The position numbers and the translations under genes are program-made. This document shows positions 24,570 to 32,837 of a DNA stretch of 64,000 bases, piece after piece. Under the pieces are notes generated by a model that ran no database searches, was not told the origin of the DNA, and saw only the letters and a program-made list of their open reading frames with translations. This stretch comes from Pseudobutyrivibrio sp. ACV-2 (lineage in GTDB: Bacteria; Bacillota; Clostridia; Lachnospirales; Lachnospiraceae): assembly GCF_900107545.1 (NCBI RefSeq), contig NZ_FNQZ01000002.1, forward strand, positions 62,001-126,000, read 5' to 3'. The stretch's first letter is position 1; every line of letters begins with the position of its first letter.

Positions 24570-26320
24570 TTTGCGAAACGCCAAAAGCCGCATAAATACG
24601 GCATTTTTTGTTAGCAAAAAAGAATAACTCCCCACTGATATGGTACAATAGAATTGACGAGAAACCACTGCACACACCAAGAAAGGAGTTATTCTGATAT
24701 ATATGATACCATATAAACAGCTTTCTTTGGCTGATATTTATTCAGATTGCCAAGATAAATTTGAAAATGACAAGCCTGCGTTTCTGTCTCTATTAGAAAA
24801 CCATATCGACCTTGATGAAATTATTCCGATTTCTTTTAGAAATCATTTCTATGCATCAACGGGTAGATTCCGTAAATACCCTTTAAAAGCTCTTCTGTGG
24901 GCTCTTATCATTCAGCGCATCTTCTCGATACCAACTGACCAGCTTCTATTAACATTTCTCGCTTATTCAAAACCACTTCGTGAATTCTGTGGTTTCACAA
25001 AAGTTCCTGACGCATCCAAAATTACTCGCTTTAAACAAGATTTTTTAGAGGACTTACAGCTAGTCTTTGATAACCTTGTAGATGTAACTGAGCCAATCTG
25101 CCAAGCTATTGATGCCGCCAAAGCAGATATGACCATTTTTGATTCTTCTGGCATTGAAGCATTTGTTACTGAAAACAATCCAAAGTATGCAAACCAGATA
25201 ATCAGGAAGCTTAAAGCATATGCCAAAGCCAAGGGCTTTTCCAAATCTTATGATCCTTATAAGGCAGCCTATAGCTCCATGCCTTCACATGCTTCTGCCA
25301 ATCCAGAGATAAAGCAGTTATACATCAATGGCCATTTTTGTTATATCTTCAAGTTTGGTATTGTAACAAATGGTATTGGCATTATCCGCCACATATCCTT
25401 TTATAACAAGGAATTCCTGACATCACATCCAGATATAGTTGTCGAAAAGAAATCATCCTCTCCTGATGAAGATAAATGCGTTCATGATGCAAAACTGCTC
25501 ATTCCTACGCTAAAGGATTTCTTTACCAAACACCCTTTAATAAATCCTAAAACATTTCTTGGAGATGCTGCATTTGACTCAGCACTTTTGTATCGTCAGC
25601 TACTTACCGGTGATACATTTGGTGATAATAGGCATTTCTCCAAAACTTATATACCGCTTAATTCCAGATCCGGCATCAAATATCCTGATTGCAAAGTTAA
25701 CGCAGATGGCATTTCATGTTGACCTAACGATGACACACTCCACATGAAATACAAGAGCTCTTCAACAAGGCCAAACGGCATTGTCAGATATAAATTTGTA
25801 TGCCCCAAAATCAATTATGTCTATGATAAAAGCACACGCAAATGTCATCGAGAATGCCAATGCACCAATCCCTGCACCGATTCTTCATGTGGACGAATGA
25901 TACACATCTATCCCGAGAAGAATCTTCGTGCTTATCCAGGTGTCCTTCGCGGAACGGAAGAATGGGATAATACCTACAAGATCAGAACTATCGTAGAGCG
26001 AGATATCAACCACATAAAGGATAACCTTTGTTTAGCAGGACGCCGCACTCAAAATGAGAAAACTCTGTATGCTGACCTGATACTTGCAGGAATCACTCAG
26101 CTGATATCTGTCGTACTTGCCGATAAGATTCATCACCATGAATACATCAGAAGCCTCAAGCCTCTCATTGCATAGGACTTACCAACTTAATAAGACATCA
26201 GCCTTATTCAAGTGCGCCTAAAATAAGATTTATCAGCCCAGTTCACGTCTTTGCCCTCAAAAAAGCATTCCAGAATACTTTTGTTAATGTTACGCCTAAA
26301 TTTCTAATGAGTTTCGCAAT
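24570..26320 (+). mobile_element. IS1182-like insertion sequence
   Basis: About 1.75 kb. TTGCGAAAC at 24571-24579 is matched in reverse orientation by GTTTCGCAA at 26311-26319, consistent with short inverted ends. It encodes one DDE transposase, interrupted by a stop. On its right it abuts the codons DRHSEYRP of an IS200-type tnpA, so it inserted inside that gene. The exact ends and target duplication are not certain. Confidence 0.6.
24703..26175 (+). pseudogene. IS1182-type transposase with one in-frame TGA
   Basis: The frame runs from ATG 24703 to 25719, meets TGA at 25720-25722, and continues in the same frame to TAG at 26173. Total would be 490 codons, normal for the family. Parts: DUF772-type N-terminus (FYASTGRFRKYPLKALLW), DDE domain (TIFDSSGIEAF with the first Asp, FLGDAAFDSALLY with the second), zinc-like Cys cluster (ECQCTNPCTDSSCG) and C-terminus (IRTIVERDINHIKDN with the Glu). 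A single nonsense change between SC and PNDD is the only damage seen. Confidence 0.85.
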
Positions 26321-27199: not shown

Positions 27200-27301
27200 T
27201 TTCTGATTGATACAAAGTTAGTTTATATTTCCCCATTATCTTATGTAACTTTTCACAATTAAGACACAAACGTGGCTGTTAAAAAAACGCCCCTAAATCG
27301 A

Positions 27302-27372
27302 GTAGGAGGGAGATTTGAATAATCCCCCGACCTCTCACACCACCGTGCGTACGGTTCCGTACACGGCGGTTC
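27302..27372 (-). ncRNA. Group II intron domains V and VI
   Basis: Minus strand: GAACCGCCGTGTACGG then AACCGTACGCACGGTGGTG forms the 34-base domain V hairpin, followed by a stem GGGGG...TCCCTCC for domain VI and the end CTACTCGAT. It starts directly downstream of the reverse transcriptase stop. Confidence 0.8.
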
Positions 27373-27379
27373 AATCAAC

Positions 27380-28079
27380 TTAACAAGTAACACATCTTTC
27401 GGTGTAATAATCTAACATTGAGACTAATCCAAATGAGGTTAGTCTCTTTGTACTTATAGCCTTTTGTACCCATCCATTGTGAGCGAGCCTTGCGTATCTG
27501 TCTCCACAGTAGGCAATTTGATACGCTGCCCATCTTGGTACGTCTAGCTTCATCAAATTCTTAGCTCTATTCTGCGGAGTTTTCCAATGCTTCCAAATAC
27601 ACATACGAAGTCTGAATCTGATGCTTCCATCAAGTTCTTTACAAAGTGTTTTCATACTTCCTATTTTGAAGTAATTAATCCAACCTCTGATAAGTTGATT
27701 GAGTTTCTCTACTTTATAGCTGTTGCTGACGCCCCAACTACGGCAAGTGAGTTCTTTCATTCTCTTCTTAAACTTCGCTACTGATTTCGCATGTGGTTTC
27801 GCCTTATATTGATGCGCACTTGCGTCGTAGTAGAATCCGAATCCAAGATATTTTAATCCACTTGGTCTGTCTACTTTGCTCTTGGTCATGTTGACCTTGA
27901 GACCTAGTTTCTCCTCAATGAATCGAGAGATATTTCTCATGACTCTATTAGCAGACATTTCACTTCCGACCATGATGATACAATCATCTGCGTATCTTAC
28001 AAAGTTAAGCCCTCGCTTTTCCATCTCTTTATCAAGTTCATTCAACATAATATTTGCCAATAATGGCGAGAGATTTCCT
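27380..28079 (-). pseudogene. ltrA: Group II intron reverse transcriptase, C-terminal part
   Basis: Encodes GNLSPLLANIMLNELDKEM, the catalytic YADD (FVRYADDCIIMVGS), the thumb and the maturase X region (LNQLIRGWINYF), ending in YTERCVTC. No start of its own: an ATG at 28060 is simply a methionine of the RT4-5 region. It continues in frame from the part at 31,622-32,205 once the RIT element and one AAGG repeat are removed. Confidence 0.9.
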
Positions 28080-28111
28080 CCTTATGTAGAGTTTTGTGTT
28101 ATGTAGAGTTA
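28080..28111 (+). repeat. Left terminal inverted repeat of the RIT element
   Basis: Begins CCTTATGTAGAG and ends TGTAGAGTTA. It equals the reverse complement of 31562-31593 at 25 of 32 positions. Confidence 0.75.
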
Positions 28112-28298
28112 GTCCCTCGCGGCATAGAGTTCGTATGACTTGAGTCTCATATTACTCGGCATAATAAATGCGCGCGTTTTATTAATTCAATATCCCTATC
28201 CTTTTAGTATGCAGCAAATACTTTTTTATTATCAGACTTATAAATCCAGTATTTATCAGCTATTCTGTAATCACCAAGAGATGAAAGGAGGACCCGAT

Positions 28299-29534
28299 AT
28301 GACTCTGACAGTGATTACAGATGGATTGTTCTCGTTACTTGAGAAAAACAATTACAATCCGACAACCATTAAGTTTTATAAACGTGAATGGTCAAAAATC
28401 AGCCGTTTTATCCTCTCCGAGTACGGAGACGAAGAATTCGACATGGAACGCGGCATGGCTTATCTTGAAAAGACCTATAACCTTGTAACCAAATATAACG
28501 ATGGCACGTTATCCCAGCAAAGAGTGCAACTCTTAAGAGTAGTCCATATGTTGGAGGATTATCGTCTCCACCAGGTTCTTACTCAGCGTTTCTATGCATC
28601 AAAGAATCCACTTAAGCTTAATGACTACTTTTCCGGAATTCATGATAGGTATGTTGAGTTTTTAAACTCTCCTGAGATCTCCCAAAGTACCCAGAAGCAC
28701 TATAAGCGCATTTCATTAGTATTCATGGATTACCTTACTCAAAAAGGTGTGTCTGATATCAAAGATCTGGACATGGAATTATGCAACGGCTATATCAAAA
28801 CTCTAGCTGGTTTCAGCTTCAAAACCATTGAGCAGGATATTTGCGGACTAAGGCATTTCCTTCGATTTCTCAATGAGTCAGGTATTTTAGAAAACAACTT
28901 TGCTGATAAGATTCACGTTCCGCTTGTATCAAAGACTTCTCACATTCCATCAGCATGGAAGCCTGAAGAATTAAAAAAGCTTTTGGCAGCTGTGGATCGT
29001 AATAGTCCTATCGGGAAACGGGACTATGCTATGATGGTTATTGCTTGTGTAATGGGTCTAAGAATCAGTGATATCAAGACATTGCGTTTTTCCAACTTTG
29101 ACTGGAATAACAAAACACTGTCTATTGTGCAGCATAAAACAAAAAAGCCTCTAAAACTTCCTCTTCCCGATCAGGTAGGCTGGGCTGTTATTGATTACAT
29201 CAAGAACGGGAGACCTGATTATAACGGTTCTGATTACGTGTTTCTGAAACATAGGCCTCCATTCAATTCGTTTTCTGACAGTGATCATTTACAGCAGCGT
29301 ATCATATACCACATGCAGAAAGCTGGCATACGCAGGGACAAAAACAGGCACTCCGGGTTTCATTCTTTGAGACAATCCGCAGCATCAATGATGCTGGAAA
29401 TGGAAACGCCTCTTCCTGTAATCACTACTGTATTAGGACATTCAGACATGGATATAACCGCTGTGTATTTAAAAAATGATATACAAAAGCTTGCTGAATG
29501 TGTCTTGCCTCCTGAGGATTTTGCCCATGAGTGA
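28299..29534 (+). CDS. ritA: RitA tyrosine recombinase
   Basis: 411 residues from ATG 28299 with GGAGG seven bases upstream; the longer open frame from 28140 runs through the element end and is not used. N-terminal SAM-like DNA-binding domain, then the catalytic domain with Arg in MGLRISDIKTL, the Lys beta-hairpin (QHKTKKPLKLPLP), HSLR box, GHSDMD and the nucleophile Tyr in ITAVYLK. All active-site residues are present. Its last 8 bp overlap ritB, so the trio is translationally coupled. Confidence 0.92.
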   Translation: MTLTVITDGLFSLLEKNNYNPTTIKFYKREWSKISRFILSEYGDEEFDMERGMAYLEKTYNLVTKYNDGTLSQQRVQLLRVVHMLEDYRLHQVLTQRFYASKNPLKLNDYFSGIHDRYVEFLNSPEISQSTQKHYKRISLVFMDYLTQKGVSDIKDLDMELCNGYIKTLAGFSFKTIEQDICGLRHFLRFLNESGILENNFADKIHVPLVSKTSHIPSAWKPEELKKLLAAVDRNSPIGKRDYAMMVIACVMGLRISDIKTLRFSNFDWNNKTLSIVQHKTKKPLKLPLPDQVGWAVIDYIKNGRPDYNGSDYVFLKHRPPFNSFSDSDHLQQRIIYHMQKAGIRRDKNRHSGFHSLRQSAASMMLEMETPLPVITTVLGHSDMDITAVYLKNDIQKLAECVLPPEDFAHE

Positions 29535-30510
29535 ATATACCTTTAAAAGCGTGTTTGCTGATGATATACAGGAATTCATTTCATTAAAAAGAGCACTTGG
29601 GTTCAAATACGTTAGTGAGCAGGGGATGCTACAGCGTATAGATACATATTTTGCAGATAACAATGTAACTTTCCGAGAAATCACAAGGGAAATATCTGAT
29701 GGGTGGTGTAGAAAACGAAGTCATGAGACATTAACAAATCAGTCCAACAGAATAAGTGTTATGCGCATTTTTGCAAGGTATCTGAATGATATTGGTGTGG
29801 CTGCTTATGTTCCATTATCAGGAACATCACGTAAAAAACATCATTACAATGCTCACATATATACAGACGATGAACTTAAGCGATTCTTTGCAGCTGTAGA
29901 TGAAAGTAAGTCAGTGCCTTCTGAATGCCCGTACCGGGGCCAGGTCATGCCTGTATTCTTTAGGATACTTTATACGAGCGGAATGCGTGTATCTGAACTC
30001 AGACTGGCCAAGATAAGTGATATAAACCTCGATGATAAATATATCATTGTGAAAGGTGGCAAAAATCAGAAAGATCGGATAGTACCAATCCATCACTCTC
30101 TTGCAGAGAAATGTAGGGAACTGAAATGCAGTATTCACAAGTATTCTTCAGATGACGAGTACTTTTTTATGCAGTACCCCGGAAGACCCATGACCTTAGT
30201 ATGCGTTTATAAAAACTTTCGTAGATATCTTAGCAAAGCAGGCATCCCACATACAGGACGAGGCCCTCGTATTCATGATTTTCGCCATACTTTTTGTGTT
30301 AATCTACTGCTTAAATGGAGCAAAGAAGGCAAGGATCTGATGGCATATCTTCCATATATGAGAACCATGCTTGGTCATGAGGGATTTGAGGAAACTGCAT
30401 ACTATCTCAAACTTACCGCAGACGCATATCCGTTTATTCGTGAAAGCCTACAACGCAGCTTTCCGTCTATTATTGAGGAGGTGACTTTTGATGACAGGGA
30501 CTACTACTGA
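29527..30510 (+). CDS. ritB: RitB tyrosine recombinase
   Basis: 327 residues from ATG 29527 (MSEYTFKSVF), inside the end of ritA (ATGAGTGA overlap). Catalytic set: Arg in SGMRVSELRL, Lys in VKGGKNQKDRIVPIH, HDFRHTF, LGHEGFEET and Tyr in AYYLK. It is intact. RIT elements always carry three such proteins in this order, which probably act together on the ends; the division of labour is not known from sequence. Confidence 0.92.
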   Translation: MSEYTFKSVFADDIQEFISLKRALGFKYVSEQGMLQRIDTYFADNNVTFREITREISDGWCRKRSHETLTNQSNRISVMRIFARYLNDIGVAAYVPLSGTSRKKHHYNAHIYTDDELKRFFAAVDESKSVPSECPYRGQVMPVFFRILYTSGMRVSELRLAKISDINLDDKYIIVKGGKNQKDRIVPIHHSLAEKCRELKCSIHKYSSDDEYFFMQYPGRPMTLVCVYKNFRRYLSKAGIPHTGRGPRIHDFRHTFCVNLLLKWSKEGKDLMAYLPYMRTMLGHEGFEETAYYLKLTADAYPFIRESLQRSFPSIIEEVTFDDRDYY

Positions 30511-31501
30511 TTTCTCAAAAGCAGTTACTTCCTTTTTGACTGACTATCTGCCTCTTCAGAGGGGATATTCAAAGAACACCATCCTAAGTTACAGGGATAC
30601 GCTTAAGCTATTTGTACTATTCCTAACTGAGGATAAGGATATGAAGTTGTCAACGTTCACCATGGCAGATTTTTCACGTCCGCTTATTATTGAATTCCTC
30701 GAATGGTGTAGAAACCGAGGATGTTCAGTATCAACGACAAACCAGAGGTTGGCTGCGCTGAAGTCCTTTTCCTCCTTTGCGCAGATAGAGTGCATTGACT
30801 ATATCGCAACGCTTCTGGATGTGCAGGCTGTGCGTTCCAAAAAAACAGAAGGCAGGGAAATATCCTTCCTGAGCGTGGAACAGATGTCAAAGCTGATCAA
30901 TTATCCTGATGTCAATACGAGCAGTGGTCTTCGCCATAGGACAGTGCTTACCCTTCTTTATGATAGTGGCTGCCGAGTTCAGGAATTGTGTGACATAAAG
31001 CTCAGGGACATAAATACCGATATTAATCCAACACTGCGGCTTCATGGAAAAGGTGATAAATACCGAACAGTTGTCATCGATGATAAAACCACAAGGCTTG
31101 TAAAGGAATACATAATCCGCCTTAGGAAAGGTGCCATGCCAGATCATCCGCTTATAACCAATAGAATCGGAAAATCCATAAGCAGGGATGGCGTACAGTA
31201 CATAATTGATAAATATGTTTCTAAAATCCATGGCGAAGACTGCTCATTTCCTGCGCATGTCCATTGCCATCAATTCCGCCACAGCAAGGCAATGCACATG
31301 CTCGCAGCTGATATAAACATTGTATATATCCGCGATTTTCTCGGACATGAAGATATTTCTACGACGATGATATACAGCAGAGCCGATAATCGCCTGAAAA
31401 ATGAAGCTATAAATGCTTTGGCACCTAAAATAACCGATGACATTGACCTTCCCGACTGGAGGAAAGATCAGAATCTTTTAAGTTTCCTGAACTCTTTTTA
31501 G
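30491..31501 (+). CDS. ritC: RitC tyrosine recombinase
   Basis: 336 residues from ATG 30491 with GAGGAGG nine bases upstream, overlapping ritB by 20 bp. Catalytic set: Arg in DSGCRVQELCD, Lys in HGKGDKYRTVVI, HQFRHSKAM, LGHEDISTT and Tyr in MIYSRAD. It is the XerC/D-like member of the trio by appearance. Intact; the right inverted repeat begins 60 bp after its stop. Confidence 0.92.
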   Translation: MTGTTTDFSKAVTSFLTDYLPLQRGYSKNTILSYRDTLKLFVLFLTEDKDMKLSTFTMADFSRPLIIEFLEWCRNRGCSVSTTNQRLAALKSFSSFAQIECIDYIATLLDVQAVRSKKTEGREISFLSVEQMSKLINYPDVNTSSGLRHRTVLTLLYDSGCRVQELCDIKLRDINTDINPTLRLHGKGDKYRTVVIDDKTTRLVKEYIIRLRKGAMPDHPLITNRIGKSISRDGVQYIIDKYVSKIHGEDCSFPAHVHCHQFRHSKAMHMLAADINIVYIRDFLGHEDISTTMIYSRADNRLKNEAINALAPKITDDIDLPDWRKDQNLLSFLNSF

Positions 31502-31561
31502 CAAAATGGTTATGCCGAGTAAACTATGTCTTGTTAATGTAAATGCCATATGTATGAAGTT

Positions 31562-31593
31562 TAACTCGGCATAACAACTAGCTCAACATAAGG
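31562..31593 (-). repeat. Right terminal inverted repeat of the RIT element
   Basis: Reverse complement begins CCTTATGTTGAG. It ends with the inner motif CCGAGTTA. The DNA between it and the AAGG repeat (31594-31621) forms a small hairpin. Confidence 0.75.
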
Positions 31594-31621
31594 CGGATTA
31601 TGGAGATATCCGCATAACCCA

Positions 31622-32205
31622 CCTTGTGGTGTACCCACAATAGAGTCCTCGTACTCATCATCGATCATGATTCCACTGACTAAATATTTTCTAATGATAG
31701 AAATAACATCTCCATCTTTTATGGTTCTACCTATGATAGTCATAAGTTTATCGTGATTAACTGTGTCAAAGAACTTCTCCAAGTCAATGTCTACAATCCA
31801 ATCATTACCGTCATTCATCATGTCGAGCGCTGTTAGGATTGCTTGCTGTGCACATCTATTAGGTCTGAATCCATAACTGTGGTCATTAAATTGTTCCTCA
31901 TAGATTGGTGTTAAAACCTGTGCTATGGCTTGTTGTATGAATCTGTCTGTTACTGTTGGTACTCCTAGGTTTCTGATGCCACCATCAGGCTTTGGTATCT
32001 CTACTCTTCGTACTGGCTGAGGTTTATACTTTCTTGTCCTCAACTGTTCCTTGATGATATCGCCGTTCTTTTCAAGGTGTTCTTTGAGTTCTGTGTACTT
32101 CATTCCGTCCACTCCCTCTGCACCTTTGTTTCGTACGACTTGCAGATATGCTCTATTGAGATTATCACTAGATAGTATCTGCTCCATTAGACTACTTGTG
32201 TCCAT
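31622..32205 (-). pseudogene. ltrA: Group II intron reverse transcriptase, N-terminal part
   Basis: ATG 32205 (MDTSSLMEQILSSDNL) follows GGAAAGGAAAG. It encodes RT0-RT4: NKGAEGVDGMKY, IPKPDGGIRNLGVPTVTDR, SYGFRPNRCAQQAI, WIVDIDLEKFFDTVNH with the first catalytic Asp, and VGTPQGG. The frame is broken here by the RIT element. Joined to the other part (584 + 700 bases = 428 codons) it gives a 427-residue enzyme, normal for class IIC introns. Confidence 0.9.
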
Positions 32206-32692
32206 GCGTTCTTTCCTTTCCGTCTCGCTAGATTTGACCACCCTTCACCCGATTGGTTACGGCAGATGTTGTCATTTCTGCAACACGAGACCTACTCAAA
32301 CTTATTGATTGTTCACCCCTTCGCTCAATTTCCATTACAGAAACTTCTTCACTACTATGGGTTCGGCTGACTTCTCACAGTTCGTTGTTACTAGGCTAAT
32401 GAAACCTCTGTGAGACCTCCACGCTTAAGGTGCACGCTCTTTCTCTCCATATATCCGCCACATTTACTCTGCTACTACAAATGTGATAGTTATTAGACTT
32501 CGTTGTTCCTTGCCAACTTATCTCTCGTAGCCTAGCCTTATATGTGATTTCTGTCCGTCGGACCGGAGATTTGCTTACAGCTTCCTTCAGATTCCACCTC
32601 ACAATGGACACCCTTGCTGTTCGGCTATACACTTCCCACTATCTGGGCATGTTCGGGACTTTCACCCGTTAGAGCGCGCCCATGGCGCGCAA
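32206..32692 (-). ncRNA. Group II intron 5' RNA (domains I-III)
   Basis: 487 bases with no credible gene and a higher GC content than the surroundings. Near the 5' end, GCGCGCC and GGGCGCGC pair, followed by TCTAACGGGTGAAAGTCCCG, a hallmark of bacterial group II domain I. The region must fold into the ribozyme scaffold; domain borders cannot be set by eye. Confidence 0.7.
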
Positions 32693-32694
32693 AC

Positions 32695-32734
32695 AAGGTA
32701 AGGAGTGAAATCTTCGGATTTCACTCCTTACCTT
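32695..32734. terminator. 17-bp hairpin at the intron insertion point
   Basis: AAGGTAAGGAGTGAAAT at 32695-32711 pairs perfectly with 32718-32734 around CTTCGG. On plus it is followed by TTATTATTAT, as in a terminator. On minus it stands just 5' of the intron, which fits the class IIC habit of entering next to terminator stems. Confidence 0.75.
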
Positions 32735-32837
32735 TTATTATTATAAAAAAATGAGCCAAAAACCTATAGCTGTGACCCAAATCCGGTATATAATATGCCT
32801 ATATGGGCAAAAGAAAATCCCAAAGCAAAATAATCGA

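Follow-up and report, generated by a model that had tools for sequence, protein, structure and literature searches.

A recombinase-in-trio element at a recurrent site in group II intron reverse transcriptases: ends, 6-bp boxes and a proposed strand-biased exchange

The stretch of DNA analysed here, hereafter the window, is a 64,000-nucleotide segment of the 3.66-Mb genome of Pseudobutyrivibrio sp. ACV-2 (G000:C37:62001-126000). It contains an intact recombinase-in-trio (RIT) element that lies antisense inside the reverse transcriptase (RT) gene of a group II intron, immediately after the codons for GTPQ (Table 1). Three Rfam group II intron matches surround the RT halves, RNA domains and an RT/maturase thus occurring together, and TIGR04416 is found on both protein parts, each below the whole-protein cut-off. 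A scan of the genome found the RIT element in a single copy and one match to the upstream part of the intron.

Table 1. Features of the RIT element and of the interrupted group II intron (positions in the window)
Feature	Position	Strand	Basis
RIT element proper, inverted end to inverted end	28082..31591	+	23/32 end positions match; same ends in L002 and other relatives
Left 32-bp inverted end, two TTATG..GAG boxes	28082..28113	+	end comparison
Right 32-bp inverted end	31560..31591	-	end comparison
RitA, 411 aa, tyrosine recombinase	28299..29534	+	Pfam Phage_integrase; alignment A4
RitB, 327 aa, tyrosine recombinase	29527..30510	+	Pfam Phage_integrase; alignment A2
RitC, 336 aa, tyrosine recombinase	30491..31501	+	Pfam Phage_integrase; alignment A3
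Inner 6-bp box GGCGGA, inverted relative to outer box, element-carried	31592..31597	+	differs from empty site
20-bp palindrome (8/10 pairs), two fused recombinase arms	31598..31617		same position in relatives
Outer 6-bp box GGTGGG, element-carried	31618..31623	-	differs from empty site GGAGGA in 6/6 relatives
Downstream 6-bp box GGAGGA, target's own	28076..28081	-	equals empty site in 6/6 relatives
5' part of group II intron RT, ends GTPQ	31624..32241	-	Pfam RVT_1, NCBIfam TIGR04416
3' RT part with maturase domain, starts GGNLSPLLAN	27380..28081	-	Pfam RVT_1 and GIIM; continuous in 6 relatives
Group II intron RNA D1D4-3	32431..32608	-	Rfam RF02001
Group II intron RNA D1D4-1	32316..32394	-	Rfam RF01998
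Group II intron 3' catalytic part	27297..27371	-	Rfam RF00029

As the initial annotation had stated, the three tyrosine-recombinase genes (28299-31501) are open and overlap one another, by 8 bp between ritA and ritB and by 20 bp, depending on the start chosen, between ritB and ritC; in the part of the literature compared, overlaps of 4-8 bp are given for RITs (PMC3414803). Distant RITs match the three adjacent genes in the same A-B-C order. The catalytic pattern of tyrosine recombinases is R, H, R, H, Y, and, judged by the alignments, in which the catalytic residues are invariant, RitA, RitB and RitC each keep it. The element measures 3510 bp from end to end, and between the ends the three recombinase genes are the only open reading frames of at least 80 aa on the + strand, without a fourth gene. 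A predicted model of RitA, of low mean confidence (predicted local distance difference test, pLDDT, 54.8), has helical bundles at residues 3-98 and 109-193; two core-binding domains in RitA are described as a RIT feature in the part of PMC8138268 that was compared. Elsewhere in the same genome (G000:C10:2988-4867; L024, L033) a divergent RitB-like gene (30% identity) is followed by another recombinase match, and this locus is perhaps a further RIT.

The state of the intron before the insertion can be read from six uninserted copies in the same genus (L146-L151), which are 85-96% identical to the intron of the window across 679 bases upstream of the site. The RT reads straight through the site in all six, so the gene was continuous before the insertion, by which 3542 bp (28082-31623) were added. 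When the flanks in the window are joined, they form one open frame of 440 codons from stop to stop, with the junction after residue 207. The initial annotation had proposed a precise antisense insertion with flanks that join in frame, and had looked to related introns for a discontinuity of the two RT parts that would contradict it; none of the six copies provides one. In the two 100-bp segments nearest the site on each side, identity is 89-98% to the five nearest uninserted copies and 76-87% to the sixth; the near-site identity to those five rules out a chimeric RT, and the lower identity farther downstream is common to the relative L147. The insertion is probably recent, as had been suggested, both RT halves being still open and the flanks similar to those of the uninserted copies, and the interrupted intron is presumably no longer able to move by itself. 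At 32695-32739, next to the 5' end of the intron, a perfect hairpin of 18 bp precedes a T-rich stretch; some group II introns insert after terminators.

The empty sites also resolve what belongs to the element and what to the target. The uninserted sequence is CAA-GGAGGA-AAT in five of the copies and CAG-GGAGGA-AAT in L151. Along the RT strand of the window, CAA is followed by the outer box GGTGGG, the 20-bp palindrome, the inverted inner box GGCGGA, the element proper, GGAGGA and AATCTC. Because the empty site is GGAGGA in all six relatives, the downstream box is that of the target and the other two boxes are derived from the element. The initial annotation had noticed AAGG on both sides, and CCTT (AAGG on the minus strand) is indeed present at 28080-28083 and 31622-31625, although it is no target duplication: AAGG is read both in the target (CAA|GG) and at the end of the element (ATAA|GG). 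What had been taken as a 4-bp direct repeat is a coincidence, the actual unit being a 6-bp box, and the module of palindrome plus box belongs to the element. The inverted ends exist as claimed but are placed at 28082-28113 and 31560-31591, the right end having earlier been drawn to contain the two boxes and the palindrome as well. Transposition with a 4-bp target duplication into an incidental site, in whose favour the AAGG on both sides could be cited, is hardly credible, since the difference between the element-derived boxes and the empty site extends over six positions and relatives of the element occupy the same codon of different RTs; both the empty sites and the relatives contradict it.

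These relatives were found by a RitB scan of genome contigs, which gave 13 loci (L002-L014), and by a RitC model search among 397 family genomes, which gave one more (L097). The closest, L002 of Butyrivibrio sp. LC3010, is 90% identical in DNA to the window element over 3.66 kb and occupies the same codon in the RT of another intron; a copy of the same trio bounded by other ends had been named as a finding that would contradict the insertion, and L002 has ends of the same kind. The same RT codon is hit in 12 of the 15 subfamily loci, the window included (11 of the 14 additional loci), and the other three are unreadable: L010 has lost its left end and its contig stops at the right end, L013 has broken rit genes, and L014 is a fragment. 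The specific nature of this target had been missed by the initial annotation. The flanking RT piece was matched by Pfam in seven loci (L002, L005, L007, L009, L011, L012 and L097), and in four with short flanks (L003, L004, L006 and L008) the RT insertion was read by eye. A group II intron RT is again the target, and at the same motif, in Rhodococcus pseudokoreensis (L175) and Agrobacterium vitis (L178), whose RitB proteins are 38.5% and 35.5% identical, respectively, to that of the window. In five of the seven downstream RT pieces scanned (L002, L007, L009, L175 and L178), the match to RVT_1 begins with the first residue, which falls on profile position 122; the piece of the window was entered from a later start, and that of L012 aligns only from residue 80.

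The palindrome is found on the 5' side of the RT in all ten readable loci (the window, L002, L003, L005, L007, L008, L011, L097, L175 and L178), and a GATATC-type centre is common to the window, L002 and L003. Because its sequence follows the relatives of the element, the palindrome travels with the element. The left half of the target fits C.CA(A/G) in 10 of 11 subfamily and RT sites, the exception being L003, and it resembles the element arm CATAA, which the right half does not. In L006, RT 5' halves and palindromes stand at both sides. On a 7186-bp contig of a metagenome-assembled genome (MAG), L004 has two identical trios head to head around a palindrome, which is either real or an assembly fold-back; the arrangements of L006 and L004 may both be assembly effects. 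The element of L008 is on a short MAG contig labelled Parabacteroides, its relatives being from Firmicutes, which would mean either transfer or wrong binning. No new member of the subfamily was found in 392 order, 391 class and 22 further family genomes, where G457 and G468 proved, by their size and position, to be the contigs of L007 and L006; one scan of IMG/VR gave no close relative (best 38%), and among plasmid and phage records none reached 60%. Among 29 genus genomes, the palindrome pattern occurs in two, that of the window and G028, where the single match (G028:C1:710224-710243; L197) lies alone, about 14 kb from a divergent RitB match.

Beyond the subfamily, an end scan covered 86 loci from viral contigs, family genomes, plasmids and the subfamily, three of which returned nothing. 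A layout score of at least 30 was reached in 54 of them and of at least 33 in 48, with 30.5 for the window, and none of 1051 dinucleotide-shuffled end pairs reached 30; the score includes box similarity, and the far end was placed from the inverted repeat alone. The shuffles replaced a control with random positions from the same loci (19 of 1720 at 33 or more), in which real ends could be hit. Some of the scanned loci are near-copies of each other (L043/L045, L046/L049, L053/L054 and L051/L052). Pfam searches on the flanking pieces separately identified as targets IstB (L035, L183), a transposase with a Mu-type C-terminal domain (L132), an IS3-type integrase core (L133), IS110 (L184), IS66 TnpB (L130), ArdC with a zincin domain (L185), an error-prone DNA polymerase (L180), a C5 methylase (L041), an AlbA/Schlafen-like protein (L110), an HK97 gp10-like protein (L037, L143) and a phage portal protein (L040, L044). 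The flanks of L055, L105 and L108 had no Pfam match, their names being given by eye from the junction motif. Judged from these insertion points, RITs are site-specific, and the clades outside the subfamily cut other conserved genes, mostly those of mobile elements. The annotation of the 11-kb plasmid pTPRO8 of Salipiger profundus (L184) has each of the RitA and RitB protein accessions two times, in opposite orientation.

The phylogeny of RitC, with 54 rows (L178 was omitted for its split RitC), groups the targets. The members of the portal clade (7 rows) group together, as do those of the gp10 clade (4 rows), Pfam having been applied to two members of each and the others having been assigned through the junction motif. 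The window falls in a starred clade of 13 rows, L008 among them, each of the 12 rows with a readable flank being an insertion in an RT, and the Rhodococcus RT element is found elsewhere in the tree; rows L009, L010 and L012 are labelled x there, so that the tally shows five changes for the RT. Targets are thus inherited within clades, and the RT motif was reached either several times or very early.

For the boxes, 49 candidates were taken (score of at least 33, plus the window), of which 12 were dropped and 37 kept. All three boxes are equal in 15 of these loci, outer equals downstream in nine, outer equals inner in six, inner equals downstream in one, and all differ in six. Outer and downstream boxes differ at a mean of 0.59 positions within a locus and 4.34 between loci, and they are equal in 18 of 28 non-RT loci, a number reached in none of 10000 permutations. 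Where homologous empty sites could be compared, the downstream box equals the empty site in 6/6 homologues for the window, 3/3 for L178, 2/3 for L180 (the third, 82% identical, has GATCCC, the outer box), 3/4 for L185 (the fourth, with a diverged flank, has TGACCA) and 5/7 read, of 11 fetched, for L110 (the others have CATAAA, and CACAAA, the inner box). The six bases of the target are thus on the side away from the palindrome in five of the six insertions tested, and in 5/5 without L183, whose flanks are chimeric. These counts are suggestive of a strand-biased exchange but fall short of proof.

Two other explanations bear on these boxes and on the palindrome. In Tn916, both strands are exchanged, the junctions are heteroduplex, and either junction may keep target bases. 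An ordinary double-strand recombination of this type over a 6-bp overlap, with heteroduplex at both junctions and no strand bias, would accommodate the behaviour of the boxes, which is that of an overlap not necessarily identical in element and target, and the sample on which a bias could be judged is small (5/6, or 6 versus 1 for outer equal to inner against inner equal to downstream); the box of the target is nevertheless on the same side in those five insertions, the lone exception having chimeric flanks, and we regard this explanation as unlikely. It is still less probable that the palindrome is outside the mobile unit, left over from a second element that has since decayed or from an older event of insertion and deletion at this site. 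The palindrome does resemble two fused element ends, and extra or double modules occur in L006, L043, L046 and L106, but it is absent from the six empty sites of the window's intron, it stands at a constant distance in loci of several phyla, and its sequence follows the relatives of the element.

Comparison of the loci shows the exact ends, a 6-bp crossover box, a 20-bp palindrome carried by the element together with two more boxes, and the placement of the target's box away from the palindrome. With a probability of roughly 0.7, we propose that the window element is a site-specific RIT transposon of a subfamily that homes on the DNA encoding the PQG|G motif of group II intron RTs and moves through a circle and strand-biased exchange. 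The recombinases would bind the TTATG..GAG boxes as 10-bp arms around the 6-bp overlap, and the junction of the excised circle, end-X-palindrome-X'-end, would present two inverted core sites that share the palindrome. One core site would recombine with the target half-site C.CAA, with a cut between CAA and X, and the strand-biased exchange would place the element's X beside the palindrome and leave the target's X on the far side. Since the junction would be symmetric, the trio could face either way, and it does so in 17 versus 20 of the 37 loci. The boxes carried would be leftovers of earlier target sites, the inner box tending to become corrected to the outer. Since the predicted junction, of about 52 bp, is nearly palindromic, either strand could possibly fold into a hairpin presenting one core site; such a hairpin would yield the polarity and might be the reason that the inner box follows the outer. 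The only features that fit integration of a folded single strand are the palindrome and the polarity.

Several observations weigh against this proposal. No circle or movement has been observed, and we infer mobility of the window element only from 90%-identical copies in different introns and from the empty sites. In the end scan, 32 of the 86 loci had no candidate or did not reach a score of 30, some of them being truncated contigs, and the complete plasmids L176, L177, L181 and L182 gave no credible ends. L180, L185 and L110 each have one or two homologues with a differing box. In L183 the polarity is reversed, the outer box GTCCAA being near the empty site GTCCAG in 3/3 homologues and the downstream box not; its flanks are 94-97% identical upstream and 68-76% downstream to the same IstB copies, and it is probably a recombinant of two insertions, an explanation made after the fact. 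Five or six insertions make a small basis for claiming strand bias, and the palindromes on both sides in L006 and L106 and the extra outside module in L043/L046 are not predicted by the model.

A wider generalization is tentative, and we think it rather doubtful as a whole: RITs would be a class of transposons, present in several phyla, that home on motifs. Each clade would be directed to the DNA of a single conserved protein motif, in many cases a catalytic one and for the most part within other mobile elements, and entry would take place when a folded hairpin of about 52 bases, made from two inverted core sites, exchanges one strand, with the boxes rewritten at each jump. The motifs would include PQG|G of the RT, the ATPase motifs of IstB, HSDQG of IS3, IS110, IS66 TnpB, HELGH of ArdC and the phage portal. 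If so, each insertion would retain a short record of earlier target sites. The target rule by itself, under which the DNA of a conserved protein motif is cut, usually one belonging to a different mobile element, would account for the ability of a strictly site-specific element to find targets in distant hosts.

Among the other genes of the window, two consecutive open reading frames at 24703-26175 resemble, by eye, a single transposase split in two.

The RIT family itself is already known, and its ends, anatomy, target rule and polarity as described here appear to be new. The portions of the RIT literature compared describe no group II intron RT target, 6-bp boxes or polarity; the main survey (Ricker et al., 2013), which is outside this comparison, may describe the palindrome. 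In the portions concerned, RITs are given as about 3,500 bp long, one having inserted into a transposase gene and one into radC, and a palindromic sequence overlaps a 28-9 bp inverted repeat, no binding or recombination site being convincing (PMC3414803); insertions in the tnpA gene of IS66 and in radC are reported (PMC2864759). In a table of 2023, the target specificity, the empty site and the movement of RITs are still entered as not tested (PMC10214605, consulted in part). The same spot and the same unusual ends in relatives suggest how RITs pick and enter targets, and the exact ends, empty sites, 6-bp overlap, polarity and predicted circle junction supplied by the window and its relatives make RIT movement directly testable.

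Of the systems compared, each from partial accounts of it, the ritABC RITs of Cupriavidus are the nearest, having, like the window element, three overlapping tyrosine-recombinase genes A, B and C, about 3.5 kb and inverted ends; in the window element the polarity, the target in a group II intron RT, the 6-bp boxes and the palindrome that the core sites share are resolved in addition. SE elements and Tn554 are likewise site-specific, multi-recombinase elements with a 6-bp footprint and the target's 6 bp at one end, and a strand-biased exchange has been proposed for SEs and Tn554, the six bases of the target staying at one end in SEs (PMC10214605). The RITs studied here leave the same footprint, with target bases at one end in the insertions counted above. 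SEs encode IntA, Tfp, IntB and Srap, and Tn554 encodes TnpA-TnpB-TnpC, gene sets that the window element lacks, and the part of PMC10214605 compared describes no second, inverted core site with a shared palindrome for them. GInts also have several integrases in one operon and are site-specific, but differ in their four genes ginABCD, large cargo islands and flanking direct imperfect repeats (PMC5385486); the window element has no counterpart of the fourth gene. In CTXphi and integron cassettes, a folded single strand presents a duplex core site and one strand is exchanged. The window element differs from these in encoding its own three recombinases and in that a single-stranded substrate is only hypothetical here; like them, it would have two inverted core sites that can be folded into one duplex, at which a one-strand exchange would give the polarity seen.

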